From contig NZ_JHVI01000023.1 of the NCBI RefSeq assembly GCF_000620065.1, positions 1 through 64,000 of the forward strand: a stretch of DNA of 64,000 nt, read 5' to 3'. Shown in pieces: positions 22,233 through 43,903 of this stretch. The stretch is from Meiothermus cerbereus DSM 11376. Lineage in GTDB: Bacteria > Deinococcota > Deinococci > Deinococcales > Thermaceae. The translations under genes were made by a program, and so were the position numbers. Numbering within the stretch: position 1 is the first letter of the stretch; every line of letters begins with the position of its first letter. A model generated the notes under the pieces. The model made no database searches, was not told the origin of the DNA, and worked only from the letters and a program-made list of their open reading frames with translations.

Positions 22233-22296
22233 CTCCCCAGATGGCATCGGGGAACCCCGGTGTGGGGCCTGGGCATAGACCCTATAATTCTTGGGC

Positions 22297-23886
22297 ATGG
22301 AACCCATCCCTAGCTTATATCGCCTCATCAAGCTGTACCGGCTCATCTTGCCGCTGGCGATTGCGCTGGTGGTGGTGCTTTTTGAGCTTTCCCTCGAGCC
22401 CTACCAGGGCCAGCCGGTAGCTTTCTGGCTGCGGATGGGCTTTTATGGCCTGGTGGGGCCGCTGGTTACCTGGATGACCCTGGAATGGATTGCTCAACAG
22501 GTGCAAGAACGTGAGCGGGCCCAGCGCGCTCTGGAGGTAGCCAACCAGCGGCTAAAGGCCATTGGCAACATCCTCAAGCGGGCCTCGGCTGCCGACAACC
22601 TCGAGCAGGCCCTGGCCTCGGTAGTGCAGGAGGTGGCCCAGGCCCTGGGCATGGAGGCCTCGCTGACCCTCGAGGGGGTGCGGGCCACCTCGCCCGGCTT
22701 CAAGGCGGGGTCGGGGCCTTTGTACGAGGTGCCGCTACCGGGCCTGGAAGGAAGGCTCGAGGTGGTTCTGCCCCGGCCCCTTTCGAGCGAGGAGCAGAAT
22801 TTTCTGGAAGTGCTGGTGGCCGAAGTGGCCGGGGCGCTGGACTCAGTGCGCGCCCGCAGCCGCGATCTGCTCACCCTCTACGAGGTAGACCAGGCCCTCA
22901 GGGCCGAGGCCAATCTGGGCCGACTGCTGGAGCGCCTGATGGATCGCATCCTGGCCTGGGCCGGGGCCAGCGGGGGCGGGGTCTTGTTGCTGGACGAAGA
23001 GAACTTTTTGCAGCCGCAGGTGCTGCGCAACCTCGAGCTGCCCCTTTACGCCTTCATACCCGAAGAGCGCTGGAAAGAAGCCCTGGAAACACCGGTTTTT
23101 GTACGGGAAAACCTGCTGGCAGTGCCCCTGCGCGAGCAGTCGGCCATCGGACTGCTGTTGGTACAGGGCGAGGCCGAAAACCTGCGCCAGCGGCTGCCCT
23201 TTCTGCGCTTTCTGGCCGCCCAGGTCACCCTGGCCGTACGGAACGCCCAGGCCTACCTGCGGGCCGAGGAGCTGGCCCTCACCGAGGAACGCAACCGCAT
23301 AGCCCGCGAGATCCACGACGGCATCGCCCAGGCCCTGGCGTTTATGGCCCTCAAGCTCGACCTTTCCGAGCGACTCCTGGCAACCGACCCAGAACGGGCC
23401 AAAGAAGAGCTGCAGCAGGTCAAAGAAACCCTGCGAAGCCAGATTCGTGAGGTTCGGCGCAGCATTTTTGCCCTAAGGCCCATCGACTTAGAGCGCTACG
23501 GATTTCTGGAGTCGGTACGGCGCTACGCTAGCGCTTTCGCCGAGCAAGCTGGCTTCCGGGTGCGCCTGAGTCTGCCGGAAAAAATCGAGCTATCCCAGGC
23601 TTCCGAGCTGGTTTTTTTCAGGGTGTTACAGGAAGCCCTGGCCAACGCCGCCAAGCACGGCAGGCCGGGGCTGGTGCAGGTCAGGCTCACACCGCTGGGC
23701 GAACGGGGCGGTGTGCTGGAGATCAGCGATAACGGAAAGGGCTTCCAGGCCGACGCCAGGGCTGGTGGAATGGGCGGGTTTGGCCTGACCCAGATGCGCG
23801 AGCGGGTGGAAGCGCGGGGCGGGCGCTTCGAGGTCGAGTCGGCGGAGAATAAAGGCACCACAGTACGGGCCGAGCTGCCTTTTTGA
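22297..23886 (+). CDS. Membrane sensor histidine kinase, NarL/DesK type (HisKA_3)
   Basis: 529 residues. Two N-terminal membrane helices (about 13-33 and 45-68) are followed by a coiled segment, two GAF-like regions (about 95-190 and 200-320), a HisKA_3 domain with phospho-His340 in REIHDGIAQAL, and an ATPase domain with EALANAAKH, ISDNGKGF and GGFGLTQM. The usual partner is a LuxR-type response regulator, but none is adjacent, so it is an orphan. -10 TATAAT is eight bases before ATG 22297. It converges with nqo14. Confidence 0.9.
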   Translation: MEPIPSLYRLIKLYRLILPLAIALVVVLFELSLEPYQGQPVAFWLRMGFYGLVGPLVTWMTLEWIAQQVQERERAQRALEVANQRLKAIGNILKRASAADNLEQALASVVQEVAQALGMEASLTLEGVRATSPGFKAGSGPLYEVPLPGLEGRLEVVLPRPLSSEEQNFLEVLVAEVAGALDSVRARSRDLLTLYEVDQALRAEANLGRLLERLMDRILAWAGASGGGVLLLDEENFLQPQVLRNLELPLYAFIPEERWKEALETPVFVRENLLAVPLREQSAIGLLLVQGEAENLRQRLPFLRFLAAQVTLAVRNAQAYLRAEELALTEERNRIAREIHDGIAQALAFMALKLDLSERLLATDPERAKEELQQVKETLRSQIREVRRSIFALRPIDLERYGFLESVRRYASAFAEQAGFRVRLSLPEKIELSQASELVFFRVLQEALANAAKHGRPGLVQVRLTPLGERGGVLEISDNGKGFQADARAGGMGGFGLTQMRERVEARGGRFEVESAENKGTTVRAELPF

Positions 23887-23983: not shown

Positions 23984-26227
23984 CTACTGCACCTTCAGGC
24001 TGATGGTGGTGAGCGGTGGCTCGCCCTCGGGCCGACCCGTCTCGCGCACCTCGTAGGTGACTTCGCCGGGGCCGGGGTCAGAGAGGTAGCTCCAGCCGCA
24101 GGCCGCGCTCAGGGCGATCTCTTTGCGGCCAACAATCCGCTCGCCTCGCTTTATCACAATGGTGTAGCTGCTGGCCGAACCCACCCCACCAAAGCGAAAG
24201 GGCCTCGAGACCGTTCCGCCAGCCTGCAGGTTTGATAAGGCAAAGCTTTGGTTGCAAACAGCCCCGGCCTGGGCCTCGGATACCTGCAAGGAGATGCGGG
24301 CGCCAGAAGCGGCCCCTTCGGCCCGCACCTCGTACACCCGCGCCCCACTGGCAGGGGGCGGCACATTCAGGCTCCACTGGCCGTTGGCATCGGCAGTGGC
24401 CCGGCCCAAGCTGGCCCCATCCTCAAAGATTTCGACCACCTGGCCGGGCCTGGCGGTGCCCTGCAGGGTAAAGCCTGTAGCAGCCACGGTAGCTCCGTCC
24501 AGCGGCGAGGCAAAAACGGGCTCCGCCGGTAGCGAAACCGTAACGCTGGTGCTGGCTTTGCTCATGGCTCCAGGCCGACGGGCCTCGTAGGTGTGCACCC
24601 CAGCGGTTAGAGCCGAGGCCGGGAGCGGGAAGCTCCAGCGCCCATCGGGGCCTACCGTGACAGTGCCGAGGGGGTTGCCGTTGTCGAAGAGCTCGAGGGT
24701 CTCTCCAGGTTTACCAGCGCCCTCCAGGTTGTAGCTTCCGGCCACCAGGGTCGCGCCAGCCGTAGGTGCCGCGATGGTAACAGCCGCTACCGCAGGAGCC
24801 AAACCTGTGCTAAAGGCCCGCAGGCCCAGTCCAGGCAAAACCGATAGCAGGCCAAGTAAGGCCATCGCCCCCACCAGCATCCCCAGCGCAGGCAGGCCTG
24901 TCCGCGCCGCCGGGGCCATCAGAGCCTGGCTGATGCCCAATGGGGCCGCCGCCACCGGAATGCCCGGCGCTTCGGAGCTGCCAAACTGAGCCAGGGCGGC
25001 TTCGGCCTCGCGGTCTTCAGCTTCTTGCACCGGCGTAGGCTTGCTAAAAATCAGGAAGAAGGTCTTGAGGTAGTAGTACGCCCCAATGGCCGAGGTGACG
25101 AGGGCCAGCACCACCAGTCCGTAGAACCCGGCCCTGGCCGCTTCCTGAAAAACCAGGTACTTGGCCCAGAACCCAGCCAACGGGGGCAGCCCCAGCACCG
25201 AGAGGATGCCAAGGCCCATCGCCCCACCCAGCAGCGGCTTGCGATACCAGAGTCCCCGCAAGCGTTCCAGCGGCACGTCCTGGTTGGAAAGCATCGAGAG
25301 CACCGCAAAAATGAGGCCCGTGGCCAGCCCGTAGGTCAGCAGGTAGAAGGGAATGGTAGCCTGTCCGGTCGGGCCAAAGAGCCCCAACCCGATGTAACCG
25401 GCGTTGGCGATGGAAGAATAGGCGAAAAGCCGCTTAGCTTCGGTCTGTGACAGGGCCCCCAGGTTCCCAAAGAGGGTGGAGAGGGCAATCAGCGCGGCCA
25501 TCCCGATGCCCCAGACCTCGAGACCTTCGGGGGTGAAGATCCGCAGCATTGCCGCGAACGCTGCAGCCTTGACCGCTGTCGCCATGAAGAGCGTGACCAC
25601 GGTAGGGCTCCCCTGGTACACATCGGGCGACCACCACTGGAAGGGCACCATGGCGACCTTGAAGGCAAAAGCTGCCATAATCAAGAACAGTCCTGCCAGA
25701 TACAGCGGCCCAGAGCCCGTTGCCCCTGCCATAAAGCTGCCGGTAGCGCCAAAGTAGAGCGCAATCCCATAAAGAAATATGGCCGCACCCAACGCCCCCA
25801 GCAAGAAATATTTCAGGCCCGCCTCAAAGCCTTTCTCATCGCGCTGCCAGGTCGCCAGAACGTACAGGGGCAGCGAAAACACCTCCAGGGCGATCACCAA
25901 GACCACCAGGTTGGGACTGCTGGCCATGATGTGCATCCCGGCTACGGCGTAGAGCACCAGCAGCGGAAACTCAAACTTTTTGGCAGGCCCTAGCAGCAAG
26001 ATCCACAAGCCCCCCAGAATAGCCACCAGGGTCAGGCCCCGCGCCAGGGTGTCCAAACGGTACAGCCCGCCAAAGGCTTCCAGGGTCTCTCCCCATCCCA
26101 CCGCACAGAACAGGCCGGCCAGCCCCAGGCCCGCCACCGTGATCCAACGGTTGGCCTCCCTCGAGATCACAAAGGCCAGCAACGAGAGCACTGTGGCGAA
26201 GCCAGCCAGGATGTATAGGGTTAGCAT
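23984..26227 (-). CDS. nqo14: Complex I subunit Nqo14 (NuoN) fused to C-terminal Ig-like repeats
   Basis: 747 residues against about 427 for Thermus Nqo14. Residues 1-475 form the antiporter-like NuoN core with around 14 helices, including the helix Lys of the channel region (FKVAMVPFQWWSPDVYQG). A longer polar loop (about 397-440) lies before the last helix. Residues 484-565 and 568-650 are two tandem repeats with the pattern G-x-G/A-x-P-G-x-x-x-E-[LI]-F-x-[DN]-G-x-x-L-G followed by D-G/N-G-x-W-S, typical of bacterial Ig-like domains. The tail 655-747 holds two cysteines (658, 710). NuoN ends in the periplasm, so the extension should lie outside. Last gene of the operon, after a 118-base gap. 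Confidence 0.93.
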   Translation of the reverse strand: MLTLYILAGFATVLSLLAFVISREANRWITVAGLGLAGLFCAVGWGETLEAFGGLYRLDTLARGLTLVAILGGLWILLLGPAKKFEFPLLVLYAVAGMHIMASSPNLVVLVIALEVFSLPLYVLATWQRDEKGFEAGLKYFLLGALGAAIFLYGIALYFGATGSFMAGATGSGPLYLAGLFLIMAAFAFKVAMVPFQWWSPDVYQGSPTVVTLFMATAVKAAAFAAMLRIFTPEGLEVWGIGMAALIALSTLFGNLGALSQTEAKRLFAYSSIANAGYIGLGLFGPTGQATIPFYLLTYGLATGLIFAVLSMLSNQDVPLERLRGLWYRKPLLGGAMGLGILSVLGLPPLAGFWAKYLVFQEAARAGFYGLVVLALVTSAIGAYYYLKTFFLIFSKPTPVQEAEDREAEAALAQFGSSEAPGIPVAAAPLGISQALMAPAARTGLPALGMLVGAMALLGLLSVLPGLGLRAFSTGLAPAVAAVTIAAPTAGATLVAGSYNLEGAGKPGETLELFDNGNPLGTVTVGPDGRWSFPLPASALTAGVHTYEARRPGAMSKASTSVTVSLPAEPVFASPLDGATVAATGFTLQGTARPGQVVEIFEDGASLGRATADANGQWSLNVPPPASGARVYEVRAEGAASGARISLQVSEAQAGAVCNQSFALSNLQAGGTVSRPFRFGGVGSASSYTIVIKRGERIVGRKEIALSAACGWSYLSDPGPGEVTYEVRETGRPEGEPPLTTISLKVQ

Positions 26228-26345: not shown

Positions 26346-27767
26346 TCATGACGCACCCCCGAACAACGCAGCAAAAGCCTTGCCCAAGGGCTCCAAATAC
26401 ACCGTGAAGAGTTTTGGATACAGTCCCATCAAAAGCAGCACCCCTACCGCTACGACAGCAAAGCCCCACTCACGGGTGTCCATATCGGGCACAGCCTGGG
26501 CCTGGGGGGTTTCCTGGAAAAGCTTCTGGTACGCCGTGAGGGCATAAGCCGCCGCTGCAATAACCGCCAGGAAGGCCAAAAAGGTAAGCCAGGGCGAAAC
26601 CTGGTAAGCCCCCAGCAAAACCATCAGCTCACCGGGGAAGCCCGATAACCCCGGTAGCCCAATCATGGCCATCAGCAAGAACATCCCCAGCACATACAGC
26701 GCGGGGGTGTGCTTAGCCAGCCCGCGCACCGGCAGGACTTCCAGGCTGCCGGTTCGTTTATATACCAGACCCACAAACAAGAACATGGCCGAGCCATACA
26801 CCATCGAAGCCCCCAGCAGGTAAAGGGCACCCACCGTACCTTCCATATTCCCGCTGAACAGCCCTAGGGCCGCTACGCCCATGTGCGAGACGCCCGCATA
26901 GGCCAGCAGGGTTTTCCAGTCGGGCGCACTGAAAGCCAACCAGGCCGCATAGAGCGCACCAAAAGCGGCCAGAAAAAGCAGCAGCCCCTGCCACTCCCGG
27001 AAGCCTTCCGGCATCAGCGGAATGGCCCACTTGAAGAGGGCGAACACCCCCACCTTGTACAGGGTGCCCATCGCGTCGGCCAGGCCCGAGGGGTGGTTTT
27101 GCTGGTGGAAGCTAGGCAGCCAGGCATGCAGCGGGAAAAGCGGGGTTTTGACCGCCAGCGCTATCAAAAAGCCCAGAAAAGCCAGCACTGCGGTTTGTCC
27201 GCTAAGAGGATGGGCCACCAGGTCGGAGTAGAGGAAGCTACCAGCCCCTCCCAAAAAGCGCACCGCAAAGATGGAGGCCAGCATGGGCAGCGAACCCATC
27301 AGGGTAAACAGCGCAAAGGTATAGATGGCCCGCAGCCGGTCGGGCCCCCCGTAAAACCACAGCATCAGGAGGGCGGGAATCAGGGTGGCCTCGAAGAAGG
27401 CGTAGAACAAAACCAGGTCTTGGGCCGCAAAGATGCCCAGCAAACCGGTTTGCATCATCAGGGCCAGGGCCAGAAAGCGCACCGGCACATCGGCCACCCA
27501 GACCCCCAGCAAAACCACCAGGCTTACCGCAAGCCAGAGTAACAAGCCTGCCCCGTCCAGCCCTACTGCGTAGTAAACCCCAGCCTCCGGCAGGAATGGG
27601 ATCTGGCTGGCATAGGCCGCAGCCTCTCCCGCATAGCCCACAAACAGCACCACCGCAATAAGCAGGCTCACCGCCGCCGAGAGGGTGGCAAAGGCGCGCC
27701 CCAGGCCCGGCACCATAAACAGCAGCAAACCCGCCAGGAGGGGCAACCACAGTCCTACATGAATCAT
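26346..27767 (-). CDS. nqo13: Complex I subunit Nqo13 (NuoM)
   Basis: 473 residues, a proton-pumping antiporter-like membrane subunit of NADH-quinone oxidoreductase. Multiple membrane helices; conserved Glu in [10 protein letters not shown] and channel Lys in [12 protein letters not shown]. The start overlaps the nqo12 stop by four bases. Length matches Thermus (about 469). Confidence 0.96.
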
Positions 27768-29596
27768 CGCAACACCCCCCAGCCCACCAACAGTACCAGG
27801 GCGATTATCATCCCGGCCATATAGAAGCGCAAAGCACCTGTCTGGAGTTTGGTTAGCACGCTTCCCAGCCCTCCAACCAGACCTCCAAGACTCATAAAGC
27901 CTGTCAGCAGACCTTTATCCCCGCCAAAAAGTAGCTCGGCCAGCCCTTTGGCCGGATTCACCAGCAGGGTGTTATACAGTGCATCCGCGTAGAAGCCCTG
28001 CAAAGCCGCCGCCTGGAAGCGCTCGTACCAGGCCGGCATCTTCTGCTGGAAGAAGCGGAAGCCCCACCACAAAGCGGCAATGGCCACCACCGCCGAGGTA
28101 ACGATGAGCGCCCATTCGGTAAGCACGGGCAGCTTCTCGTGGGGAAAGTCTCCGATGGCCTTGGTGAGGAACGGCTCGATAAAGTTTTTGTAGTCAATCA
28201 CATAAGGCAGCCCGATAAAACCCACGCCAATAGCCCCGCCCATCAGTATGTGGTTGGGCCAGAGCATCACCGCGGGGCTCTCGTGGGGGTGCTCCTTGCC
28301 CCGGTAATCGCCCCAGAAGACCAGCACATACCAGCGGATCGAGTAGAGCGCCGCCAGTACCGAAGCCAAGAGCATCAGGGCCCACAGCCAGGGGCCATAC
28401 TCAAAGGAGTAGGCCAGAATTGCGTCCTTGGACCAGAAGCCCGCTAAGGGCACCAGGCCGCCCGAGGCAAAAGTAGCCACCAGGCCGTGCAGGTGCGTAG
28501 CCGGCAGGTACTTACGCATTCCTCCCATTTTTCGTACGTCCTGCTCGCCGCCTAGGGCGTGAATCACCGAACCGGAGGTCATGAACATCAGGGCTTTGAA
28601 GAAGGCGTGGGTCACGATGTGGAAGATGGCCACCCAGTAGGCCCCCACCCCCACCGCCACAAACATGAAGCCAAGCTGCGAGAGGGTGGTGTAGGCCACG
28701 ATGCGCTTGATGTCCCACTGGCCCAGCGAGCAGAGCGCCCCATAGAGGGCGGTAAGCAAACCGATGGCCACAATCAGGCCCGACAAGAAGGCATCGCCGT
28801 GCAGCATAAAGGCGTGACGAACCAACAGGTAGACCCCCGCCGTGACCATGGTGGCCGCGTGGATCAGGGCCGATACCGGGGTGGGGCCGGCCATGGCGTC
28901 CGGCAACCAGACCATCAGCGGCACCTGGGCGCTCTTGCCGATAGCCCCAATCAGCAGGAAGAAGCCGGCCAGGGTGAGGGTGGTAAAGCTATAACCGCCA
29001 GCCTCTACCTTCTCGACCAGCTCGGAGATCGAGAGGGTGCCGAACATGCTCCACAAGAGGCCCATGGCCAGCAAAAAGCCCAGGTCACCGATACGGTTGA
29101 CGATGAAAGCCTTGCGGGCTGAGTCGGCGTTGACGCGCTCCTGATACCAGAAGCCGATTAGCAGGTAGGAGGCCAGGCCCACCCCCTCCCAGCCGATGAA
29201 CACCACCGGCAGGCTGTCGCCCAGGATGAGCACCAGCATGGCCGCGATGAAGAGGTTGAAATAGCTAAAGAAGCGGCTGTAGCCAGGGTCGCCGTGCATG
29301 TAGCCGATGGCCCAGACGTGAATCAGGAAGCCCACCCCAGTCACCACCATCAACATGACGCCCGAAAGGTTGTCGAGGTTGAGGCCGAAGGGGATTCCCG
29401 GTAGCCAGTCGGGAAGGGCCCATCGGGCTCCGCCTTGCAGCAGCAAAACCAGGCCCAATAAGAAGCTCCCCAGCACCAGAATTGAGGCCAGCCAGCCAGC
29501 AGACGGCTCACCGATTCGTTTACCAAACAGCCCAAGAATCACAAACCCCAGCACGGGAAGTGCGATGGTCAGGGGTAGAAGAAGGGTTTCTTGCAC
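27764..29596 (-). CDS. nqo12: Complex I subunit Nqo12 (NuoL)
   Basis: 610 residues. The distal antiporter-like subunit; the C-terminal part should hold the long lateral helix running along the membrane arm. [49 protein letters not shown] and [13 protein letters not shown] are family signatures with the channel Lys and His residues. Four-base overlap with nqo13, three bases after nqo11. Confidence 0.97.
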
Positions 29597-29599
29597 GTT

Positions 29600-29890
29600 T
29601 TACCCCCTAAGTTGCCGCAGCTCATCTACGCTGGTGGTCTCGCGGCGACGGAAGATGGCCACAATCAGGCCCAGGCCCACCGCTACCTCGGCAGCAGCAA
29701 TGGCGATGATAAACAGCACCACCACCTGGGCATCCAGGCTTCCAATCATTTTGGAGAAGCTGATCAGGGAGAGCGCTGCGGCATTCAACATTAGCTCGAT
29801 GGACAAAAACATCAGAATAGCGGTGCGCCGGGTAAGCGCGCCGTAAGCCCCAATCGAAAACAGCAAGGCGGAAGCTATAAGCCAGATCAT
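29600..29890 (-). CDS. nqo11: Complex I subunit Nqo11 (NuoK)
   Basis: 96 residues, three membrane helices. Membrane glutamates of the coupling path lie in SIELMLNAA and IAAAEVAVGL. Start overlaps the nqo10 stop by four bases. Confidence 0.95.
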   Translation of the reverse strand: MIWLIASALLFSIGAYGALTRRTAILMFLSIELMLNAAALSLISFSKMIGSLDAQVVVLFIIAIAAAEVAVGLGLIVAIFRRRETTSVDELRQLRG

Positions 29891-30486
29891 CGCTTCACCA
29901 CCGCCCTCTCATCTTTCTGTTCGGCAGTCGGGGGATTGGGCTTTGGGTTCTGCCGAGGGTGGGCTGGGTGGCTGGTTGCAGAAACAATTCGCTCCGGCTC
30001 GATCAGCACCACCGCCGCCACGGTAGCCACCAGCAGCAAAAAACCCACCACCAAAAGGGCATACAGCCACTTGTCGGGGTCATAGAGCAGGGGCCCCAGG
30101 GCCTGGGGCAGACCGCCACCCAGCGCAGGCGCATTTGCGGGCGGCTGAAACCGGGTTACGGCAAAAATCAAGACGCCTGCCAGGCCCAGCGCACCAAACC
30201 CGGCCACCCAGGGCAACCGGGGCAGCAGGTCCTGGCCCACATTGGCACTTGCCGCCGAGAGCAGCATAATCACGAACAAAAACAGCACCACGATGGCCCC
30301 GGCGTAGACGATGATCTGGATCATAGCCACGAAGCGGGCCTCGAGCGCCACGTACACGCCCGCCACTACCAAGAAATTGGCAATTAGCGCCAGGGCTGCG
30401 TGGACGGCATTTTGTAGGCGCACTACCGCAATGGCGCTACCAGCCAGCAACACCAGCGCGAGGATTTCCCAAAAACCGACACTCAT
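29887..30486 (-). CDS. nqo10: Complex I subunit Nqo10 (NuoJ)
   Basis: 199 residues. Five membrane helices in the first 165 residues, including the conserved IQIIVYAGAIVVLFLFVIML. The Pro/Lys-rich tail of about 30 residues makes it longer than Thermus Nqo10 (176). ATG 30486 follows GGAGGA; a slightly longer TTG frame exists but is less likely. A 155-base gap separates it from nqo9, unlike the tight spacing elsewhere. That gap holds a 7-bp hairpin (GGTTGCG...CGCAACC) and a possible internal promoter (TTTGGG-17-TATGCT). Confidence 0.94.
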   Translation of the reverse strand: MSVGFWEILALVLLAGSAIAVVRLQNAVHAALALIANFLVVAGVYVALEARFVAMIQIIVYAGAIVVLFLFVIMLLSAASANVGQDLLPRLPWVAGFGALGLAGVLIFAVTRFQPPANAPALGGGLPQALGPLLYDPDKWLYALLVVGFLLLVATVAAVVLIEPERIVSATSHPAHPRQNPKPNPPTAEQKDERAVVKR

Positions 30487-30641
30487 TGATTCCTCCAAGG
30501 GAGCCTCGAGTCTAAAGTTATACGTCCAGGGTCAAGCATAATCTTGGAGATTTTAACCCCAAACAGGGGTTGCGAAGCACCCGCAACCGGCTTTGAATTC
30601 ATTCCGCCTCGAGGCTCGAGCCTAGACACGAAGCCCTCTAC

Positions 30642-31184
30642 TCACTTTTTCGGCCTGGGTGGATGCACACCCTCGAGCTCGGGCCGCACGTATGGTACGG
30701 AGTAACCTCGCTTGATCGGCTTGCCGGTGTAGGCCGCCTCGCGGCGCTGGGGCTTAGTACCCTCCACCTCGACCAGCATGTCCTCCTTACCATAAACAAA
30801 GTCGGAGTAACGGTAGTCGGCCATCTCGAAGTCGTAGCCCATTACCACTGCACCAGTGGGGCAGGCTTCCTCGCACAGGCCACAGAAGATGCAGCGCAGC
30901 ATGTTAATCTCGTACACCCTGGCATAGCGCTCGCCGGCGCTCACCGGGTTGTTGGGGTCGTTCTCGGCAGCCTCCACATAGATGGCATAGGCCGGACAGG
31001 CTGCCGCACACAGCGAACAGCCGATGCACTTTTCCAGGCCGTTGGGGTGCCGGGTCAGCACATGCCGCCCGTGGAAGCGGGGCTTGAGGGGCACCGGGGC
31101 GTCCGGATACGGAATCGTAACCGGTTTAGAAAACAGCGCTTTCAGGGTTATACCCATGCTCTGCGCAAGTGCAGCAATACTCAC
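30642..31184 (-). CDS. nqo9: Complex I subunit Nqo9 (NuoI), two 4Fe-4S clusters
   Basis: 180 residues. Carries clusters N6a and N6b through [12 protein letters not shown] and [12 protein letters not shown], passing electrons to N2 in Nqo6. Start GTG 31184 is set by GAAAGGAG seven bases upstream and by alignment with Thermus Nqo9 (x-LAQS-x-GITLK); the longer frame from 31214 would run into nqo8. Gap to the nqo8 stop is 16 bases. Confidence 0.95.
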
Positions 31185-31200
31185 AGCTTCGCTCCTTTCT

Positions 31201-32469
31201 CTAGTCACCCGCACCCACGCCGGGCATGGCCCTGGGCTTGGGTTTGGCGGTCAGAATCACATAGGCCGAAAAAAGCACCAGACTCAACAAGGAGAGCCAG
31301 CCCAGCACGGCCACCGGCCACTGCAAGGCCACCACCATGGCCGACAACAAAAACCAGGCCAGCGCCAGCGGGAACAAGCGGCCCCAGCTAAAGACCATCA
31401 GCTGGTCGTAGCGCAGGCGGAACAGCGTACCCCGCACCCAGATAAAGAAGAACAAGAACAGCGCAATTTTGACAAACATCCACAGGTAGGGCAGGGCAAA
31501 AAGACCGCCGATGATGGGGATTTGCTCCATAAAGCCGGGCATCCGCCAGCCGCCCAAAAAGATGGTGGGAATCAGGGCCGCAGCAGTGATGAGGTGGATG
31601 TACTCGGCCATCTGGAACAAGGCCCACTTGATGGAGCTGTACTCGGTGTTGTAGCCCCCCACCAGCTCCTGCTCGGCCTCGGGCAGGTCGAAGGGGGTGC
31701 GGGCCGCTTCAGCCATGCTGGTCAGGAGGAAGATGGCAAAAGCGGGGAGCATGTACAGAATCAGCCAGCCGTTTTCGTACTGCCAGTTCACAATCTGCTG
31801 GAGGTTCAGCGACCCCACCAGCACCACCGGGGCAACCAGGCTGATGCCCAGGGCCAGCTCGTAGGAGATCAGCGAGGCCGAGGAGCGCAGCGAGCCCAGC
31901 AGGGAGTACTTTGAGTTGGAGGCCCAGCCCGCCAGAAAGATGCCGTAGATGGCCATCTCGGAAACCGCAAACACATACAGGATGCCCACATCCAGGTTGA
32001 TGACCCAGGGGTCGTAACCAAAGAAAGCGTCCTTGGGGCCAAAGGGGATCAGGCCAAAGGTGAGCACGGCAAAGGTAACCGAGATCATGGGAGCTAGGAC
32101 AAAAATCACCCTATCCGCTCTGGCTACGATCAGGTCTTCCTTGAAAATGGACTTGATGGCATCGGCCAAGGGCTGGAGCAGACCATCCGGCCCCACCCGG
32201 TTGGGCCCCTGGCGAATCTGGATACGGGCCAGCAGCCGCCGCTCAATCAGGGTCATGTAGGCAAAGGCCGTCAGCAGGCCAAAAATCACCAGGAAGGCCT
32301 TGATGCCTACCATCCATAGGGGGTCGGTGGCATCGGCATCGGCAGGGGCCGCTTGGGCCGCCAGGGCAGTACCCATGACAAACGTTGCGCTACTCAAAAT
32401 TAGCTTTTGAACCGATGATCTGAGTCGCCCTGGGCTTTCGACTCTGGGCTTGGGGCATTCGTCCTTCAT
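31201..32469 (-). CDS. nqo8: Complex I subunit Nqo8 (NuoH) with N-terminal extension
   Basis: 422 residues against about 365 in Thermus. The core from about residue 50 has the eight-helix NuoH fold with [19 protein letters not shown] and [19 protein letters not shown], forming the quinone chamber with Nqo4 and Nqo6. The first 48 residues are extra: a polar start, then a hydrophobic stretch ending AAQAAPA that looks like a cleavable signal. ATG 32469 is supported by GGAGGTG and a four-base overlap with the nqo3 stop; an inner Met at 32 or 53 is the alternative. Confidence 0.93.
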
Positions 32470-34832
32470 GCTTCACCTCCGACCAATACCCTAGCCTCAA
32501 CCTTGCGACCCGCCCAGGCTCCCAGTGCAGGCAGGTACATCGCGCCCTCGGGGAGGCCAGGCACCACCTTGACCTCGAGCTTCTCTATGCCCATCGGCGT
32601 TTCCAGCTCAACCAGGTAACCTTGAGCCAAGCCATTGGCCTTGGCAGTCTCCGGGCTCATCTCCAGCTTGACCTCCACCGTTTTGGCCACTGCACCTACG
32701 AGCTGCTCCCGCCGCCACATGGTCGGGCGCAGGTACAACGACCCTATAGTCACATCCGCATCGGAGGCAGCCCAGCCGGTTGATTTTTGCGTCCAGCGCT
32801 CTAACACAGGCGGGAGTTTGTGTTTATCGACCAGCAGCCTGGTGGCCTGACGCACCAGCCGAACCGGAGTCTTGACCCCTGCGGCCTCGGCAATCAGGCC
32901 CAGCGCCGCCACTGCACCATCGGCCTCGCCATTGTTGATTCCCGCGGGCTCGAGCGGCAACACCCGGCCCTCGAGGTTCACGGTGTGGCCGCGCTTCTCG
33001 TAAGCGGTCTGGCCCGGCAAAACCACATCGGCGTATTTCTCGGCCAGCGGATGGCGGTGGGTCAGGTGCAGAATGCGGAAGGAGGCCGCTTTGAGCTGCT
33101 TTTCGCTGGGCAGGTAGGCATAGTAAACCACCCTGGGCCCCGCCTCGCTCCAACCTGCGCCGCCCTTGCCAGGAAACAGCCCCAGCGCTTCCAGCCCCCG
33201 CGCGTTGGCCGCAGGGGTCATGCACATCACCCGAGCACCCGTGCGCTCGGCAAGCTGCTTGGCTTCTTTGGCCGCCTGGGGCTGGTTAAGCACCCCCGCG
33301 CCCAGCACCAGCACCACCCGCGAACTGGCCGCCAGGCGCGCCTTGACCCAGGCCACCGGCTCGCTCAGACCAGCGGGCGCTTCGGCCTGATCCAGCAGGG
33401 CCGCCAGCAGGGCCGCTTCCATCCCCGGGGCGTGTACGGCGCTGGCCCCAGCCCACCTGGCCGTGCTGCTGGGATAGGTGCTGAAGAGGGCCAGCTTATG
33501 GGTCAGGCGGGGCATCCGCTCCTTGATGTTGAGGTCGGCAAAGGGGGTACCGTGCGCGAGCTTGGCAGCGGGTTTGAGGCCACGGCTGTACTCCGAAAGT
33601 CGCAGGTGCAGGGTGGGGGCCTCTTCCTCCGGCTGGCCCAGCACCAACACAAACTCGGCGTCCAGGAGCTCATCGAAGCTGGCCGGGGCAAACACCCCAA
33701 CGGGGTGGGCGGTACGGCCCTGGAAGTCGCGGTGCGGCGTGCTCAGGGCCTGGGTCAGCTCGAGGGCCGCCAGGCCCTCCTCCAGGGTGCTGTTGCCCGC
33801 CAGGTAGATGCCCATATCCGCCCCGGCGATACCCTCCAGACCTTTGCGGATGGCCTCCAGGGCCTCCTCCCAGGTGGCTTCCACCAGTTTGCCGTCCTTG
33901 CGCACCAAGGGCGTGCGCACCCGGTTTTCGTTGACCCATTCGTGGCCGAAGCGGGCCGCATCGGAGATCCAGACCTCGTTCACTTCCCGGCGCTCGGCCG
34001 CCCGGATGCGCTCGAGCAACCCGCTACGGGTATCCACCACAATTGCCGCCCCGCTGGCGTCGTCCATCGAGGTGGTCTCGGTGGAGTCGTACTCCCAGTT
34101 GCGGGCGCGGAAGCGTGCGGTCTGGTCGAGCAGGGCCCCCACCGGGCAGATGTCCACGATGTTGCCGCTAAAGTTGGAGGGTAGCCCCTTCTCCTCGCTG
34201 TTGATGAAGGTATGCACCCCCCGCTCGATGAAGTCGAGCACCTCCTCGCCCGGAATCTCCTCAAAGTAGCGCACACAGCGCTTGCAGTGGATGCAGCGCT
34301 CCCGGTCGAGCACGATGAAAGGCGAGAGGGGGTGGTGCTTGTCCACCTGGCGCCGGGTCATCTCGAAGCGGGTGTACATGGGCAGCTCCATGGGGTCGGG
34401 CTGGTAGAACTTCTCCACCAGGCCGTACTCGTAGCTGCGATCCTGTAGCTCACAGGCCCCGCCCTTGTCGCAGGTGGGGCAGTCGAGCGGGTGGTTGAGC
34501 AGGGTCAGCTCCACCATGCCCGACTGGGCGTGCTTCACCTCGTCGGAGAGGGTGTCCACCACCATCCCGTCGGTTACCGCGGTGATGCAGGCCGCCGCCA
34601 GCTTGGGCATCCAGAAAATTTTGGGCTGCCCATCCTCCATGATGAAGTTGCCGTCCGGCCCTTTGCGCGGGCTGCCGGTCCTAACCAGGCACATCCGGCA
34701 GGCCCCGATGGGCGACAGGTGCTTCTCAGCGCAGAACAGCGGCACATCGTAGCCAGCGTGGAAGATGGCATCCATCACCGAGGTGCCGTTCGGTACCTCT
34801 ATGGTTCTGTCGTTAATGGTTACCTTGGCCAT
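32466..34832 (-). CDS. nqo3: Complex I subunit Nqo3 (NuoG), lacking cluster N7
   Basis: 788 residues, the large Fe-S subunit of the NADH arm. Ligands for N1b (Cys34, 45, 48, 82), N5 (His114, Cys118, 121, 127) and N4 (Cys180, 183, 186, 229) are in place. The four cysteines that hold the off-path cluster N7 in Thermus (256, 259, 263, 291) are all replaced here (Ser255, Asp258, Ala262, Ser290). The rest is the molybdopterin-oxidoreductase-like fold without cofactor. Eight bases after the nqo1 stop. Confidence 0.96.
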
Positions 34833-34840
34833 TCCCTACC

Positions 34841-36157
34841 TCACCCCCAGCGGCTCCCCAGGCGCTCGACCGGCCTGCCCTGTTCTACAGCTTCCACAAA
34901 CTGGTGGCGGAAGTGCTTGAGGCTGCCACGCACCGGCCAGCAGGCCGCATCGGCCAGCGCACAGAAGCTGCGGCCCTCGATCTGGTCGAGCATGCTCTCC
35001 AAAAGCTCCACATCGCCTTTCTGGCCCTGTCCGGTTCCGATCTTCTCGAACAGGCTCACCATCCAGCCCGAAACCCCCTCGCGGCAGGGGGTGCATTTGC
35101 CGCAGGACTCGTGGCCGTAGAAGCGGGTTATGTTCCACATAGCATCCACCATGCTCATGCTGGCCGGGATGCCGATCACCCCCCCGGTGCCCAGCAGCGA
35201 GCCCTTGGCGCTGATGGACTCGTAGTCCATGGGGGTATCGAGGATTTCGTCGTTCCAGGGCAAAGGCGGGCAGGAAGAGCCCCCCGGAATAATGGCCTGG
35301 ATGGGCTCGGTGGGGCCCCCGGCCCAGTCGAAGAGCAGCTCGCGGAAGGTGGTGCCCAGGGGCAGCTCGTACACGCCGGGGCGCTTGAAGGGGCCCGAGA
35401 CCTGGAAGAGCTTGTGGCCCTTGGACTTTTCGGTGCCCATGCTGGCGAACCAGTCGGCCCCGCGCTCGATGATGTGCACCACCGAGCAGAGCGACTCCAC
35501 GTTGTTGATGGTGGTGGGCATCCCCCACAGGCCGGCCTGGGCCGGGAAGGGGGGCTTCATGCGGGGGTTGGCCCGCAGGCCCTCGAGGGAGTTCATCAGG
35601 GCGGTCTCCTCACCGCAGATGTAGGCCCCGGCCCCCCGGTGCACATACAGGTCGAAGCTAAAGCCGGTGCCCATCACATTCTGACCCAGGTAACCCGCCG
35701 CATAGGCCTCGCGAATCGCCGCGATAAGCCGGTCGTAGGCCCGGCGGTACTCGCCGCGGATGTAGATGTAGCCCTTGCTGGCCTGGATCGCCACCCCCGC
35801 AATCATCATGCCCTCGATGAGCTGGTGGGGGTCATCCTCCATCAGGTAGCGGTCTTTGAAGGAGCCCGGCTCCGACTCGTCGGCGTTGCAGACGATGTAG
35901 TGCTGCTTGCCGGTGTTTTTGGGCATGAAGCTCCATTTGAGCCCGGTGGGGAAACCCGCCCCTCCCCGCCCACGCAGGCCAGACTTCTTGACCTCCTCAA
36001 TGACCCAGTCCTGGCCCTGGGCGATGGCCTTCTTGATGGCCTGATAGCCGCCGTGGGAAAGGTAATAGGCAAGCGTCCAGGAGTTGGGCTGGCCCACGTG
36101 TTTGTATAAGGTCTTTTCGAAGCGGGGGTCTTTGCCGCTCACGATGGGCCCGTTCAT
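34841..36157 (-). CDS. nqo1: Complex I subunit Nqo1 (NuoF), NADH and FMN site
   Basis: 438 residues, same length as in Thermus. Binds NADH and FMN ([26 protein letters not shown]) and cluster N3 ([11 protein letters not shown] plus Cys in FCALADA). The start overlaps the nqo2 stop by four bases. Confidence 0.97.
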
Positions 36158-36717
36158 GCGCCCACCTCCTCCCCGCGCACATGCACCTCGTGCCCCACCT
36201 TACCCGGCAGCGCGATCTCCTCGAGCCGCCGACCTTCCCGCAAACCCTGCAACAGCGCATGCAGACGGGCTTTGGTTACGCACTCCACGTAGGGCTCGTC
36301 GTTGACCTGCACCACCGGGGCGGTGTGGCAGGAACCCAGGCACTCCACCTTCTGGATGCTAAAAAGGCCATCGGGGGTTACTTCTCCCCGCAAAATGCCC
36401 AGCTCCTGCACCAGTTCGTCCCATAGCTCATCGGCCCCCCCAATGGCACAGGAGAGGGTGGCACAGACCTGGAGGTGGTACTTGCCGGTGGGCAGAGCCT
36501 GGTAGTAGCTATAAAAGCTCATCACACCCGCCACCTCGGTAGCGGTGATACCTAGGATTTGGGCAATCTCTTCCTGACGCTCAGGGGAGATCCAGCCCTC
36601 CTCCTGCTGTATCCGCCGCAGCATGGGCATGATGGCCGCCCGTCGCCCCTGGGGCGTATCAGGGTACTGTGCGAATACCTCACGTAGCCAGTCTTGTTTA
36701 TCGTCGAAAAATCCCAT
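36154..36717 (-). CDS. nqo2: Complex I subunit Nqo2 (NuoE), 2Fe-2S cluster N1a
   Basis: 187 residues. A thioredoxin-like domain binds N1a through Cys residues of [11 protein letters not shown] and [14 protein letters not shown] 36717 follows GGAGG; an upstream in-frame start adds four residues and is less likely. A 72-base gap separates it from the nqo4 stop codon. Confidence 0.96.
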
Positions 36718-36789
36718 ATGCCTCCGCAAACATTCAAAAGCCTGGGGGGGGACAGCTTGTCCCTGAACGCCAGGCCTCCGTTACATAAC

Positions 36790-38037
36790 TCATCGGTCTA
36801 CGTCCCCCATCACCGGGTCTAAAGAAGCAATCACCGCCACCATGTCGGCCATCTGGACGCCTTTGCAGGCATAGGGCAGGCTTTGCAGATTAACAAAGCT
36901 GGGCGCGCGCACCTTGACCCGGTAGGGCATCGAACCACCATCGGAAACGATGTAGTAGCCCAGCTCACCCCGGGCGCTCTCGGTAGGCACGTACACCTCG
37001 CCCGGGGCGGGGTGGAAGCCTTCGGTCACCAGCTTGAAGTGATAGATGACCGCCTCCATCGAGGTTTCCAGCAAGTGGCGCGGCGGCAGCGAAATTTGCG
37101 GGTTGGGGTCGCGGATGGGGCCGGGCCCGATGGCCTCGAGCCGCTCGACGGCCTGCCGAATAATCTTGACCGACTCGCGCATCTCGAGGAGGCGAATCAC
37201 CATCCGGTCGAAGATGTCGCCCCCCGTGAGCACCGGTACGTCGAAGTGGTAGGTTTCGTAGCCGGCGTAAGGGTAAGCCTTACGCACATCGTAGTTAACC
37301 CCCGAGGCCCGCAGGCTGCCCCCGGTAAGGGAAAGGTTGATGGCCACCTCGGGGGGGATCACCGCCACACCGCGGGCGCGCTCGTAAAAGATGGGGCTTT
37401 CCCGGAACAAAGCCTCGTACTCGTCGATCCGGGCCGGCATCTGCGCGATGAACTTCTTCACCTCGCCCAGAAACTCCGGCGGCAGGTCTTCCTTGAGGCC
37501 GCCAATCCGGATGTAGTTATGGTGGAAGCGCTGCCCCGAGACCCATTCGAAGAGGTCGAGCACCGCCTCGCGCTCGCGGAAGGCGTAGAAGAACGGCGTC
37601 AGCGCACCAAAGTCCAGCAGGCCCGTCCCCAGGAAGACCAGGTGCGAGGCGATGCGGGACAGCTCGTTGAGCATCACCCGGATGGCCTGGGCCCTGGGGG
37701 GCACCTGGGCCCCCACCAGCTTTTCCACGCTCAGGGCGTAGGCCAGGTCGTGGCTAAAGCTGTGCAGGTAGTCCATGCGGGGGGTGTAGGTGATGCACTG
37801 CGTGTAGGTGCGGTGCTCCATGTTCTTCTCGAAGCCGGTGTGAAGGTAGCCGATGTGGGGGGTCAGGCGCAGAATCTGCTCCCCTGAGAGATCCACCACC
37901 ACCCGCAGCACCCCGTGGGTTGAGGGGTGCTGGGGCCCCACGTTGAGGGTCATGACCTCGGATTTCAGCTCCGGCGCATCGGCGATATCGTAGGCCTCCA
38001 CCGAGGGGCTGTGTAGCTTTTGCGGGTCGCGCACCAT
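36790..38037 (-). CDS. nqo4: Complex I subunit Nqo4 (NuoD)
   Basis: 415 residues of the NiFe-hydrogenase-like 49-kDa subunit, forming the quinone site with Nqo6. [11 protein letters not shown] near residue 32 and [18 protein letters not shown] are conserved quinone-site segments. Start overlaps the nqo5 stop (TGATG). Confidence 0.97.
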
Positions 38038-38660
38038 CAGTTGCCTCCCTTCACAACCTTCTGCACCTCAGCGGCCACATCCTGGTAACCCTTGCGGGTA
38101 CCCCCCCGCCAGCCGGTCATGCCGCCTTTATCGCCGGACAGGCCGGCCCGGAAAGCGTCGGGATCAATGAAGCGGCCCTCCTTGAACAAAGTGGGGGTCT
38201 CGCCCAGGGGGAAGTCCTTGCGCAGGGGGTGGCCTTCCAGGTCTTCGGGGGTCAGGATTTTGCGCAGGTCGGGGTGGCCCTCGAAGCGGATGCCCAGCAG
38301 GTCGAAGACCTCGCGCTCGAGGTAGTCAGCCCCCATCCATAGATCGGTCAGACTGGGCAGGCTGGGGTTGGCCTCGGGCACATACACCCGGATGAAGACC
38401 CGGCTGCCATCGCCCCCCTGGTAGCCCGGCAACGAAACCAGCTCATAAACCACGCAGAAACGCTCCGGTTTGGGTTGGGGGTATTTCAGGTAGTCAATGC
38501 CCACCACGTCGGCCAGGTAGTTCCAACCCTGGCTTTTGAGCTGGGTCAGCAAGGCCTTGAACTCGCCGCGGGGCACCACCACCCAGGTGTTGCCGTGGGC
38601 CTCCTCGATGGCCCAACCGTTGGCTTGAGCCTGTTTTTTTAGCTCGGTCAGCTTTTGCAT
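38037..38660 (-). CDS. nqo5: Complex I subunit Nqo5 (NuoC)
   Basis: 207 residues, equal to Thermus Nqo5. Peripheral-arm subunit bridging Nqo4 and Nqo9; [25 protein letters not shown] and [10 protein letters not shown] are family motifs. ATG 38660 chosen over GTG 38666. Sixteen bases after nqo6. Confidence 0.95.
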
Positions 38661-38676
38661 GTCCACCTCGAGCGCC

Positions 38677-39216
<540 letters not shown>

Positions 39217-40137: not shown

Positions 40138-42702
40138 TTAAAGCGAATCCGGTCGGCCCAGGATGTAGCCCTGTCCCAGGGAAAAGCCCAGGTACTGCAA
40201 ATAGTTCAGGGCAGCTTCATGTTCGATACCTTCGGCAATCGCAGCCAGATTCAAGGCCTGGGCCAGGGCCAAAACCGCGGCCACCAGTCGGGCAGCAGAG
40301 CTTGTGGGGTTCGGAGGGGTGCTTAGGGCATTGGTAAAGGCCTGACCCAGCTTGAGTCCGTCCACCGGAAGATTGGCCAGACGTTCCAAGCTGGAGTAGC
40401 CGCTACCGAAGTCATCGAGGTAAACCCGCACGCCGAGTCTCTTTAGGAAACCTATGGTCTGGCTGGCATCTCTTCCTCGCCCATCTGGGATGAGGGAACT
40501 CTCCGTGATTTCCAGGATGAGGGCATCTGGAGGACAGTTGGTCTCTTCCAACACATTAACCACCAGTTCGGCATAGTTGGGCTGAAGGAGCTCTTGCGGG
40601 CTCACATTTACATGCACCGGCAGGCCGTGACGGTTCCTGTCCATACAGGCCCGACGCAGCACCCAGTTGCCCAGCCTGGGCATCAGGTGGTGCCGTTCTG
40701 CCAGGGGGATGAACTCGGAAGGAGGTGCTTTGGGCCAGCGCAGGAGGGCTTCCAGGGCCTCGGTTTTTCTCGTTTTGAGGTTTACAATGGGCTGGTACAG
40801 CAACGTCAGGTTCTTGTTGGACTCCAGATCCGATTGAAGGGCCTCCAGGAGCTCCATCTCCCGGCGCAAGGCATCCTGAAGCTGGGTTTCATAGAAGGCA
40901 AGGCGGTTTTTCCCCTCGGCCTTGGCGCGATAAAGGGCCATGTCGGCCCGCTGTAGAAACTCCCCTGGGGACAGTCCAGCTTCTCCCATGGCAATACCAA
41001 TGGAGGTGGTGATACGGTACGTTCGCTCCCCTAGAGGTAGAGGAAGGCGGGCCACCTCGAGCAGCCGTTCGCCCACCTTGATAACCTCTTCCACCGTTTC
41101 TATTCCAGTGAGCAAAACCAGGAACTCATCGCCCCCTTGTCGGGCCACAATATCTCGAGGCCGAAGGGCAGCCTGGAGCCGGGTAGCGATTCCTCGGATT
41201 ACCTCGTCTCCCGCCGCGTGGCCTTCCAGGTCGTTCACCAGCTTGAGCCCATCTAAGTCCAGGTAGAGCACTGTGGGGCGGGCTTCATGCTGCAAGGCTT
41301 GCGCCAGCTTCTCCATGAAAAATAAGCGGTTGGGCAGCCCGGTGAGGGCATCGTGGTACGCCAGGTGCTGCAACCTGCCCTCCAGCTCCATTCTCCTCAG
41401 GAGAAGACCCAACTGGCTGGCAAAAGCCTGGGCCAGTTCCACATCCAGGGGTGCAAAAGCGTCGCTTCGTTCGAAGTTATCGAGGTACAGAATGGCCTTG
41501 CGCTGCCCGGTCAGGTAGACCGGAACCGAAAGGATGGCCTGAATTTCCCGCACCCGCCCTGCCTCCTCCATCACCTGGCGCTGTTTGGCATCCAGGCGCC
41601 GGTTGTAGCGCTGCAGGTCTTCTTGTGTGAAGATATGGGCCTTCTTATGCTCGGTGAGGGAAATGGCATCCCCTGGCTGGAGGCGGATCTGGCGGAGCGC
41701 TGCCAGGTCGTACCCCCTGGCGGTCACAAAGTGGTAGTAGCCGTCTTCCATCAAGATGACAACGCTCCCTGCCTGGGCACTGGGTACGGTGTTCAGCGCG
41801 GCGTCGAGGATGAGGCTAAAAATAGAGTCGGAAAACCCCTCGGTCATGAGGGTCTCGTAGACCCGCAGGAGATTTTGGCGAAAGGTGCTCCAGCGCATCT
41901 CTCTTTCCTGGGCCTCGAGGCGATCTCGAATGTCCACACCCAGGGCCAGAATCTCCAGTGTTTCGCTGCCGGGACCGGGCACCGCCATAAAGGTCCATTC
42001 TGTCGGGTTAGCATCAAGGGTTGTGGCCGTAAGCGGCTGTCCTGGTTTTTCTAATGCGGCCTCAATAGGAAGAGAAAGGCCTTGGGGAAATGCCTTCTGC
42101 AAAGCAGGGTTGGCCCAGAGCAGCACCCCTGCAACACCCAGGCGGGCTACATAGAAAGGAGATAGGCTCAGAAGACGCTCTAACCAGCGATGGCGCTCAA
42201 AGAGATCCAAGGTTCGGGCCAACACCTCAGCTACACCTCGCAGGAAGGCGGCCTCCTCAGGGGTAAAGCTTCGCTCTTGCTGACAGTCATCCACCCCCAG
42301 GAAGCCCCAAAGGCCTTCCTCCACCCAGATGGGCACCACCAGAAGGCTCTGAATATCCTGGGCTTCAAGAAGGGGCCTTTCCGCTTCAGGAAAAGAGTAC
42401 ACGGTTCCAGCGATGGCCTGGTTCTGCAGGAATGCTTCCAGCCAGCGGGTGTACCCGGCTTCCTTCATGGGCAGATTTTGCAGTGCGGGATTCTGAATCT
42501 GGGGAGCCGTATCGGAAGCCGCCCACTCGGCCACTTGCGAGGCATACCAGGTGCCGTCCTGTTCCTTCAGACGAAAGATATAGGAGCGTTGGGTCTTCAA
42601 AGCCTCCGCCAGGGCCTGCAAAGTCTCGGGAAGACCGGAAAGCCCTTGTCGCAGCAGGGGCAAAAAGGTTTGGGGAATGCCATCAAAAGAAGCCTGTTGC
42701 AT
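40138..42702 (-). CDS. GAF-GGDEF-EAL cyclic-di-GMP enzyme
   Basis: 854 residues, cytoplasmic, no membrane helices. A GAF-like domain (about 15-180), a PAS-like stretch, a second GAF (about 300-450), GGDEF (motif at about 520) and EAL (EALLR at about 650). The GGDEF half is intact and has an RxxD inhibitory site (RPRD) five residues before it. The EAL half keeps E (EALLR), N (VNVSP), E (EITES), DD (DDFGSGYSS), K, E (AEGIE) and the QGY glutamine, so both synthesis and hydrolysis of c-di-GMP are possible. ATG 42702 was chosen since the longer frame shadows the next gene; the ribosome site is weak. Confidence 0.92.
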   Translation of the reverse strand: MQQASFDGIPQTFLPLLRQGLSGLPETLQALAEALKTQRSYIFRLKEQDGTWYASQVAEWAASDTAPQIQNPALQNLPMKEAGYTRWLEAFLQNQAIAGTVYSFPEAERPLLEAQDIQSLLVVPIWVEEGLWGFLGVDDCQQERSFTPEEAAFLRGVAEVLARTLDLFERHRWLERLLSLSPFYVARLGVAGVLLWANPALQKAFPQGLSLPIEAALEKPGQPLTATTLDANPTEWTFMAVPGPGSETLEILALGVDIRDRLEAQEREMRWSTFRQNLLRVYETLMTEGFSDSIFSLILDAALNTVPSAQAGSVVILMEDGYYHFVTARGYDLAALRQIRLQPGDAISLTEHKKAHIFTQEDLQRYNRRLDAKQRQVMEEAGRVREIQAILSVPVYLTGQRKAILYLDNFERSDAFAPLDVELAQAFASQLGLLLRRMELEGRLQHLAYHDALTGLPNRLFFMEKLAQALQHEARPTVLYLDLDGLKLVNDLEGHAAGDEVIRGIATRLQAALRPRDIVARQGGDEFLVLLTGIETVEEVIKVGERLLEVARLPLPLGERTYRITTSIGIAMGEAGLSPGEFLQRADMALYRAKAEGKNRLAFYETQLQDALRREMELLEALQSDLESNKNLTLLYQPIVNLKTRKTEALEALLRWPKAPPSEFIPLAERHHLMPRLGNWVLRRACMDRNRHGLPVHVNVSPQELLQPNYAELVVNVLEETNCPPDALILEITESSLIPDGRGRDASQTIGFLKRLGVRVYLDDFGSGYSSLERLANLPVDGLKLGQAFTNALSTPPNPTSSAARLVAAVLALAQALNLAAIAEGIEHEAALNYLQYLGFSLGQGYILGRPDSL

Positions 42703-42718
42703 AGGGTAATGTCTTTGG

Positions 42719-42747
42719 TAGAAAGCCCCCTGAGGGTGGGGGGCTTG
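42719..42747 (-). terminator. Terminator after the PaaK-like gene
   Basis: On the minus strand AAGCCCCC and GGGGGCTT flank a short loop, then TCT. It lies 17 bases after the ligase stop and just before the GGDEF-EAL start. Confidence 0.6.
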
Positions 42748-42763
42748 GGATTGGAGGCTCCTG

Positions 42764-43903
42764 TCAGTACCGCTTGTCCACCAGGGGCGGCCCTTCCAGG
42801 GCGGGGTCGGCCTGGATATCGTCGAGGCGGATGCCGGTGGCCTGTTGCAGGGCCGGGCCAAGCTGGGGCGGGACGGCCTCGGCCTTGATGCGCAAGGTTA
42901 GCTTGTCGGTTCCACCCTCCTTGGTTTCGACCACCAGCTGGGCACCGCCCCTGGGGTCTATACCAAAGGCCATCAGCATGGGTGCGAGTTCGGTGGGGTA
43001 GAGTTTGACCCCCTTGACCTTGACCATCAAATCGGTGCGCCCGATCACCCCTCTGGGCAGGCACAGCCTGCCCTCTGTGCGGGATACCACCGCCAGGTCG
43101 CCTGTGCGGAAACGAACCATGGGCATCAGGGTACGCGACAGAGAAGTCACCACCAGCTCACCCTTTTCACCCTCCGGGGTGGGCTGAAGCGTCTCGGGGT
43201 CAAGCACCTCGATGATGGCCATCTCGGGAATTTCCCACATTCCGTTCTTTTCCAGGCTCTCCCCTGCTACCACGCCCAGCTCGGAAGTGCCGTAGGCATC
43301 TACAGCGATGCCTCCTATGGCCTGCTCGAGCTTCTCGCGGTAACCCGGCACCGAGGTAAAGGGTTCGCCACCCGCCATCAGTAGCTCGAAGCGGCCTCCC
43401 GCCTGGGCAATCTTCATCGCAAAGCTGGGGTTGCAGACCAGGATCTCGAAACCATACTGCTGCTGTAGCTGAACGATGCGCTCGGCCTCGCCCGGGCCAT
43501 GCGGCAGCACCATGGCGCCAGCCCGCTGCAGGGCCTCGTGGAACAGCCACCCCCCGGCAAAAACGTGGTAGCCAAAAGCCACCAGCGCTTTCTTCCCAGC
43601 CACCCCCAGGCGGCGCATCTGGGCTGCCAGGGCCTCCGCCTGGTACTGCACGTCGTCGGCCGAGAGGTACTCGGGCATCCAGCCAATGGCCGGGCTGGGG
43701 GTCAGGTGCATCAGGGCAGCCCCCTGGGGCGGCCTGGGGTTCGCCTGGATGTAGGCCAGCCACTCCTGCCGGGTGGTAAGGGGTAGGCTGGCAAGCTGCT
43801 CTGGGGTTACACCAGAGGCGTTCACTGTGCTGAGTTTTTGCGCGTAGACAGGGTGTTTTTGCGCGGCGGCAATGACGGTGCGAAGGCGTTGGACTCGATC
43901 CAT
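42764..43903 (-). CDS. PaaK-like acyl-CoA ligase / adenylate-forming enzyme
   Basis: 379 residues, shorter than phenylacetate-CoA ligase (about 430). The adenylation signatures are DAYGTSELG (AMP-binding), MVRFRTGDLAV and GRTDLMVKVKGVKLYP, the hinge typical of PaaK. The N-terminal part and the usual SSGTTG phosphate loop are not evident, so the substrate and even ligase activity are uncertain. Start ATG 43903 follows AAAGGAG; a TATAAT box lies at 43931-43936 on the minus strand without a clear -35. Confidence 0.78.
   Translation of the reverse strand: MDRVQRLRTVIAAAQKHPVYAQKLSTVNASGVTPEQLASLPLTTRQEWLAYIQANPRPPQGAALMHLTPSPAIGWMPEYLSADDVQYQAEALAAQMRRLGVAGKKALVAFGYHVFAGGWLFHEALQRAGAMVLPHGPGEAERIVQLQQQYGFEILVCNPSFAMKIAQAGGRFELLMAGGEPFTSVPGYREKLEQAIGGIAVDAYGTSELGVVAGESLEKNGMWEIPEMAIIEVLDPETLQPTPEGEKGELVVTSLSRTLMPMVRFRTGDLAVVSRTEGRLCLPRGVIGRTDLMVKVKGVKLYPTELAPMLMAFGIDPRGGAQLVVETKEGGTDKLTLRIKAEAVPPQLGPALQQATGIRLDDIQADPALEGPPLVDKRY

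Follow-up and report, generated by a model that had tools for sequence, protein, structure and literature searches.

What is a proton-pumping subunit of respiratory complex I doing with a long extension behind its last membrane helix? This question is raised by the NuoN/Nqo14 gene of Meiothermus cerbereus, which lies in the 64,000-nucleotide stretch of DNA that was analysed here (the window). One uninterrupted open reading frame on the minus strand (23984-26227), with an ATG start and no internal stops, encodes both the NuoN/Nqo14 core and a C-terminal immunoglobulin-like (Ig) arm. We confirmed the length of 747 residues that a first-pass annotation of this DNA had reported, and added the strand, which it had not given. 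The best match in the PDB was the Nqo14 of Thermus thermophilus (4he8_N, 427 amino acids), aligned over residues 2-399 with an E value of 4e-114. The core, residues 1-473 (24809..26227, minus strand), was assigned from this match, from a Proton_antipo_M domain (PF00361, residues 104-381, E 2.7e-56, 191 bits against a cut-off of 21.5), and from invariant residues and loop charges. It comprises 14 transmembrane (TM) helices, which were placed by the Nqo14 alignment and are also found in a full-length structural model. The pump residues E115, K190, K220 and K356 (the glutamate of TM5 and the lysines of TM7, TM8 and TM12) are invariant in 27 homologues and align to identical residues of the T. thermophilus protein. 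That protein thus shares residues 2-399 and the pump residues with its Meiothermus counterpart, but it has nothing after TM14 and lacks both the enlarged TM13-14 loop and the Ig arm. Scores against the NuoN family model TIGR01770 were 304-307 bits, below the cut-off of 332.6. Since Nqo14 proteins of the genus Thermus also fall below it (about 298-316 bits), the cut-off does not separate the NuoN described here from Thermus Nqo14. There is a single strong NuoN match in the M. cerbereus genome; the next one listed, 32% identical, is a distant subunit of the antiporter type.

The gene is the last of the nuo operon, so a C-terminal fusion leaves no downstream nuo gene disturbed. According to the lists of open reading frames, nuoB to nuoM lie upstream of it on the same strand (26346..39216, minus), with nuoM at 26346-27767, nuoL at 27764-29596 and nuoB at 38677-39216, and a sensor-kinase-like gene (22291-23886) is convergent with nuoN. 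Several other features of the region were recorded along the way. The TM13-14 loop of NuoN (residues 396-445; 24893-25042, minus strand), presumed to be cytoplasmic, is acidic and larger than in Thermus Nqo14, and a G-[LI]-[ST]-Q-x-L-M-A-P-A motif is conserved in this loop in most Meiothermus. NuoH (31201-32469, minus strand) carries, in the listed frame, a signal-peptide-like N-terminal extension of ~50 residues before the usual TM1; a similar extension occurs in genomes of one sister genus (g4; L056, L057) and none in the listed frame of g2 (L093). A gene for a GGDEF/EAL-type signalling protein separates a PaaK-like ligase gene from the beginning of the nuo operon (40138-42861 and 42764-43990, minus strand); when the longest frames are listed, the two share about 100 bp. 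The PaaK-like ligase gene of g4 adjoins nuoA with no GGDEF/EAL gene in between.

Behind the core, about 265 residues of beta-sandwich follow a short linker (residues 474-483; 24779..24808, minus strand). The first-pass annotation had described two bacterial Ig-like repeats here, and both are borne out by the Big_6 profile (PF17936), which matched two stretches and scored the whole protein at 50.9 bits, well above the gathering score of 27.6. These stretches correspond to Ig1 (residues 484-565; 24533..24778, minus strand), which is further supported by modelled beta strands, sequence identities and the domain tree, and to Ig2 (residues 566-650; 24278..24532, minus strand), which is likewise recovered in the tree. 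The Ca_tandemer model (NF033510) scored 62.6 bits against a cut-off of 50. In Pfam no family matched the tail alone (residues 655-747; 23987..24265, minus strand), and neither LysM nor any other known wall-binding domain was found in the arm. An AlphaFold model of the arm, built on an alignment of 21 arms, gave three successive beta-sandwiches at a mean pLDDT of 90.4, and the full-length model gave the same strands, with low confidence at residues 478-481. The structure prediction that the first-pass annotation had suggested as a check therefore returned Ig sandwiches, three instead of the two expected. What had been described as a plain tail with two cysteines is, on the predicted fold, a third Ig-like domain (Ig3); its identity to a stand-alone protein and its substitution rate are given below. 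The cysteines themselves stood: C658 (codon 24254-24256, minus strand) and C710 (codon 24098-24100, minus strand) are kept in all tail-bearing proteins, in NuoN and in the stand-alone protein alike, at a spacing of 50-52, which fits a disulfide outside the cytoplasm. Fold comparison matched the arm to bacterial adhesins, S-layer proteins and eukaryotic Ig and complement domains among many Ig-type folds. Because these matches are generic, with a VIA-align list dominated by Ig/FN3-like folds at Z of about 8-10, we claim no specific functional relative.

On which side of the membrane would such an arm lie? With 14 TM helices, both termini of NuoN are on one side. Lysines and arginines number 12 in the presumed cytoplasmic loops and 1 in the periplasmic ones. 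In the Paracoccus complex I structure the TMH2-3 loop of ND2 (NuoN) is on the periplasmic side (PMC11522691), and the long NuoL helix that joins TM15 to TM16 lies on the N-side (PMC3274701); both would place the end of TM14, and hence the arm, in the periplasm. Confidence in the core of the full-length model is low (mean pLDDT 72, from a shallow alignment), and this topology therefore rests on homology and charges. By analogy with these structures the Ig arm should face the periplasm, in agreement with the C-terminal orientation assumed at first pass.

We then examined how widely the fusion occurs, using a sample of 18 Meiothermus genomes, two genomes from each of two sister genera, and 111 genomes of the phylum. 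Full-length NuoN with three Ig domains was found in 14 of the 18 Meiothermus genomes at 72-89% identity, some of them assembled into one to three contigs, which excluded the assembly error that had been named as a possible refutation. In the remaining four, NuoN lacks Ig1 (G014), ends within Ig1 (G010 and G012) or is cut by a contig end (G005). The gene downstream of nuoN in G010 and G012 is the same as in the intact genome G016, and unrelated DNA of roughly 370 and 185 bp, lengths taken from alignment coordinates, stands in place of the arm. Sequence comparison thus indicates real in-place deletions with different breakpoints. As these two genomes have lost most of the arm, it is dispensable, and complex I works without it. 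The two loci (L062/L111 and L063/L112) are also natural armless comparisons.

Outside Meiothermus, exactly one Ig domain follows NuoN in each of the two sister genera (G018, G022; G020, G023), and among the matches listed for the 111 phylum genomes no Ig arm was found on NuoN of Thermus or other genera. The suggestion that other Thermaceae might share the feature therefore holds for these two genera in a one-Ig form and fails for Thermus, and the fusion is as unusual as had been supposed, no three-Ig NuoN being seen outside Meiothermus in the phylum matches listed. Long NuoN frames of other Deinococci (up to 1010 amino acids) were considered as further arms and rejected, since BLAST placed the extra length upstream in the 12 that were checked; in these, no more than the TM13-14 region, 51-84 residues long, comes after the aligned core. 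In a plasmid collection (263 records with matches), NuoN-type matches end by residue 399 in the 40 matches listed, and matches within residues 501-714, rejected as fusions, belong among those 40 to separate Ig proteins such as BapA. A scan of genome contigs with a tail profile, whose sensitivity is limited by its single strict peptide pattern, returned 13 loci, all from Meiothermus or Thermaceae. A tree built from the NuoN core separated Meiothermus from the one-Ig genera without fixing their order relative to Thermus, so that a single gain of an Ig domain may have been followed by its loss in Thermus.

Comparison of substitution rates among the 14 full-length genes gave median pairwise dN/dS values of 0.086 for the core, 0.243 for Ig1, 0.195 for Ig2, 0.146 for Ig3 and 0.41 for the linker, and the GC3 of the arm is like that of the core. 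These values argue that the arm is a maintained protein under purifying selection. The most conserved domain of the arm is Ig3, at the tip, and the least conserved stretch is the linker, at the joint.

The origin of the domains appears to be composite. Within Meiothermus, the tail domain has just two carriers, NuoN and a stand-alone Ig protein of about 305 residues. The latter has an N-terminal TM helix and two Ig domains followed by the tail, and 8 of the 18 genomes encode it. Its second Ig domain (IgB) and cysteine tail are homologous to Ig2 and Ig3 of the arm and match them in order and spacing, with 58% identity between the tails. The domain tree grouped NuoN Ig2 with IgB at moderate support (93/71). 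Ig1, for its part, is 45-49% identical to the NuoN Ig domain of the sister genera and 36% identical to Meiothermus Ig2. We considered the possibility that Ig2 is a tandem duplicate of Ig1 that arose within Meiothermus, as would follow if the two repeats described at first pass were sisters. The AU test rejected this arrangement (p 0.026, on short domains), while a single clade uniting all NuoN Ig domains was not rejected (p-AU 0.096). Ig1 and Ig2 thus probably have different origins. Given the IgB-tail order common to both proteins and the 58% tail identity, the simplest account would be a transfer of IgB and tail from the stand-alone gene to NuoN, and the class-wide spread of the stand-alone family, which the fused form does not share, makes this direction likelier than the opposite one. 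This probable donor of Ig2 and Ig3 was missing from the first-pass annotation. The two-cysteine tail domain of Ig3 was also seen in a genome of another family (G040, L058:4283-5476), behind a DUF937 protein and a TM helix.

The stand-alone protein has a setting of its own. It is anchored by one N-terminal TM helix and has a different first Ig domain; among the proteins of Meiothermus and a sister genus (L051-L057), LysM is carried in the sister genus only. In all five Meiothermus loci inspected, its gene directly follows one encoding a TM-coiled-coil-HhH (helix-hairpin-helix) protein. The form found in the sister genus g4 has LysM at its C-terminal end (E 1.3e-13 and 7e-13), and a single PaaK-like gene separates its gene from nuoA and the rest of the nuo operon downstream. 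A TM-coiled-coil-HhH gene also precedes a TM-Ig protein in another family (G051), where LysM scores just below the cut-off. By gene order and domain content, the stand-alone protein is part of an envelope-type module, and at least one lineage had this module close to its complex I genes. More broadly, Deinococci repeatedly show a pair of genes in which one for a TM-coiled-coil protein, in most cases with HhH at its end, is directly followed by one for a TM-Ig-Ig protein that sometimes has LysM (L051-L057, L061, L117); a literature search returned no description of this module. We also noted a 1310-residue alpha-amylase-family protein of M. cerbereus (L116:749-4681, G000:C6) whose C-terminal HhH-like segment resembles that of the coiled-coil envelope protein. 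Without an N-terminal anchor and without the coiled-coil/HhH neighbour, the NuoN arm is best described from these comparisons as a derivative, and not a member, of the stand-alone family. A model in which the arm requires the stand-alone protein was rejected: eight genomes, including M. cerbereus, have the arm without a tail-bearing stand-alone protein, which therefore cannot be its general partner.

The architecture and history of the arm are well supported, and its partner and function we infer. In the reading that we favour, at a probability of about one half, NuoN is a complex I pump subunit extended by a three-Ig periplasmic stalk that serves as a stalk or tether in the envelope. An ancestor would have gained one Ig domain after TM14, a state retained in the two sister genera, and on the Meiothermus stem IgB and the two-cysteine tail of the stand-alone protein would have been added behind Ig1, presumably by recombination; both steps are supported by the distribution and the trees. 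NuoN would hold the membrane end, two Ig domains would act as spacer, and the cysteine-bearing Ig3 would provide the contact. If extended, the stalk may measure perhaps 10-12 nm, and its conserved terminal domain would dock to an envelope component, possibly a peptidoglycan-associated protein or polymer. Complex I might then be held at the cell wall or spaced from it, or gathered with other complexes. The LysM domain on the g4 stand-alone protein is consistent with a role of the arm as an anchor. A more specific version is tentative: that complex I is mechanically anchored to the wall by a dedicated NuoN stalk, taken from a peptidoglycan-linked protein whose gene sits near the nuo operon in a sister genus. 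The loss of the arm in two species shows that its role is accessory; in this reading it is non-essential and lies outside the proton pump.

Alternatively, the Ig domains could fold back against the periplasmic side of NuoN, NuoM and NuoJ/K and stiffen the complex with no outside partner. Periplasmic beta-hairpins on this same side are described as stabilising other complexes I (PMC11522691), although these Paracoccus-type elements are short hairpins or loops in contrast to a three-domain arm. Stiffening would also fit the purifying selection and the presence of one Ig domain directly after TM14 in the sister genera. However, the linker before Ig1 evolves fastest (dN/dS 0.41) and includes residues of low model confidence (478-481), which suggests a flexible joint, and the domain furthest from the membrane is the most conserved, as expected of a binding tip. 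Moreover Thermus, though it grows hotter than Meiothermus, has no arm. We consider a bracing role unlikely. A strongly conserved Ig3 would serve equally if the arm were a dock for a supercomplex partner or a periplasmic redox protein instead of the wall, and complex I of another bacterium has been reported in supercomplexes (PMC11522691); yet the homologous domains are carried not by respiratory proteins but by a membrane-anchored envelope protein with ties to LysM and to a coiled-coil gene, and this makes docking of that kind rather improbable. Still less probable is a near-neutral passenger at the end of the last operon gene, tolerated since the C-terminus is free in the periplasm. The in-place deletions in two species and the shortening in another are what such a passenger would produce, but dN/dS of 0.15-0.24 in all arm domains, invariant cysteines and motifs, and the full form in 14 of 18 genomes speak against it. 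Finally, an assembly or sequencing error joining nuoN to a neighbouring gene deserves practically no weight, because the same fusion is found in independent assemblies, including the one-contig G016, and codon constraint and composition continue through the arm.

The families that make up this protein are known individually. Big_6/Ca_tandemer Ig domains usually occur in long arrays of secreted adhesins. Ig1 and Ig2 of NuoN score above the cut-off of Big_6, a domain of adhesins and surface proteins, but in Meiothermus the array is a short arm and its carrier is a polytopic pump subunit. No such arm was present among the matched solved NuoN-type chains, of which the best full-length ones have 427-571 residues, and neither a NuoN-Ig fusion nor the complex I of Meiothermus was the subject of any paper returned by a literature search. 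The combination of these parts on a core pump subunit was thus not found in the PDB set, the phylum, the plasmid matches listed or the literature. Complex I has highly conserved core subunits, and a conserved periplasmic multi-Ig extension of one of them would be a simple case of an envelope-positioned respiratory complex, for which the armless species and the one-Ig sister genera are ready comparisons. For the organisation of respiratory complexes in bacterial membranes the arm is a candidate determinant that can be removed without touching the pump. If the envelope-tether reading is true, Meiothermus would possess a respiratory enzyme that brings its own tether to the wall.
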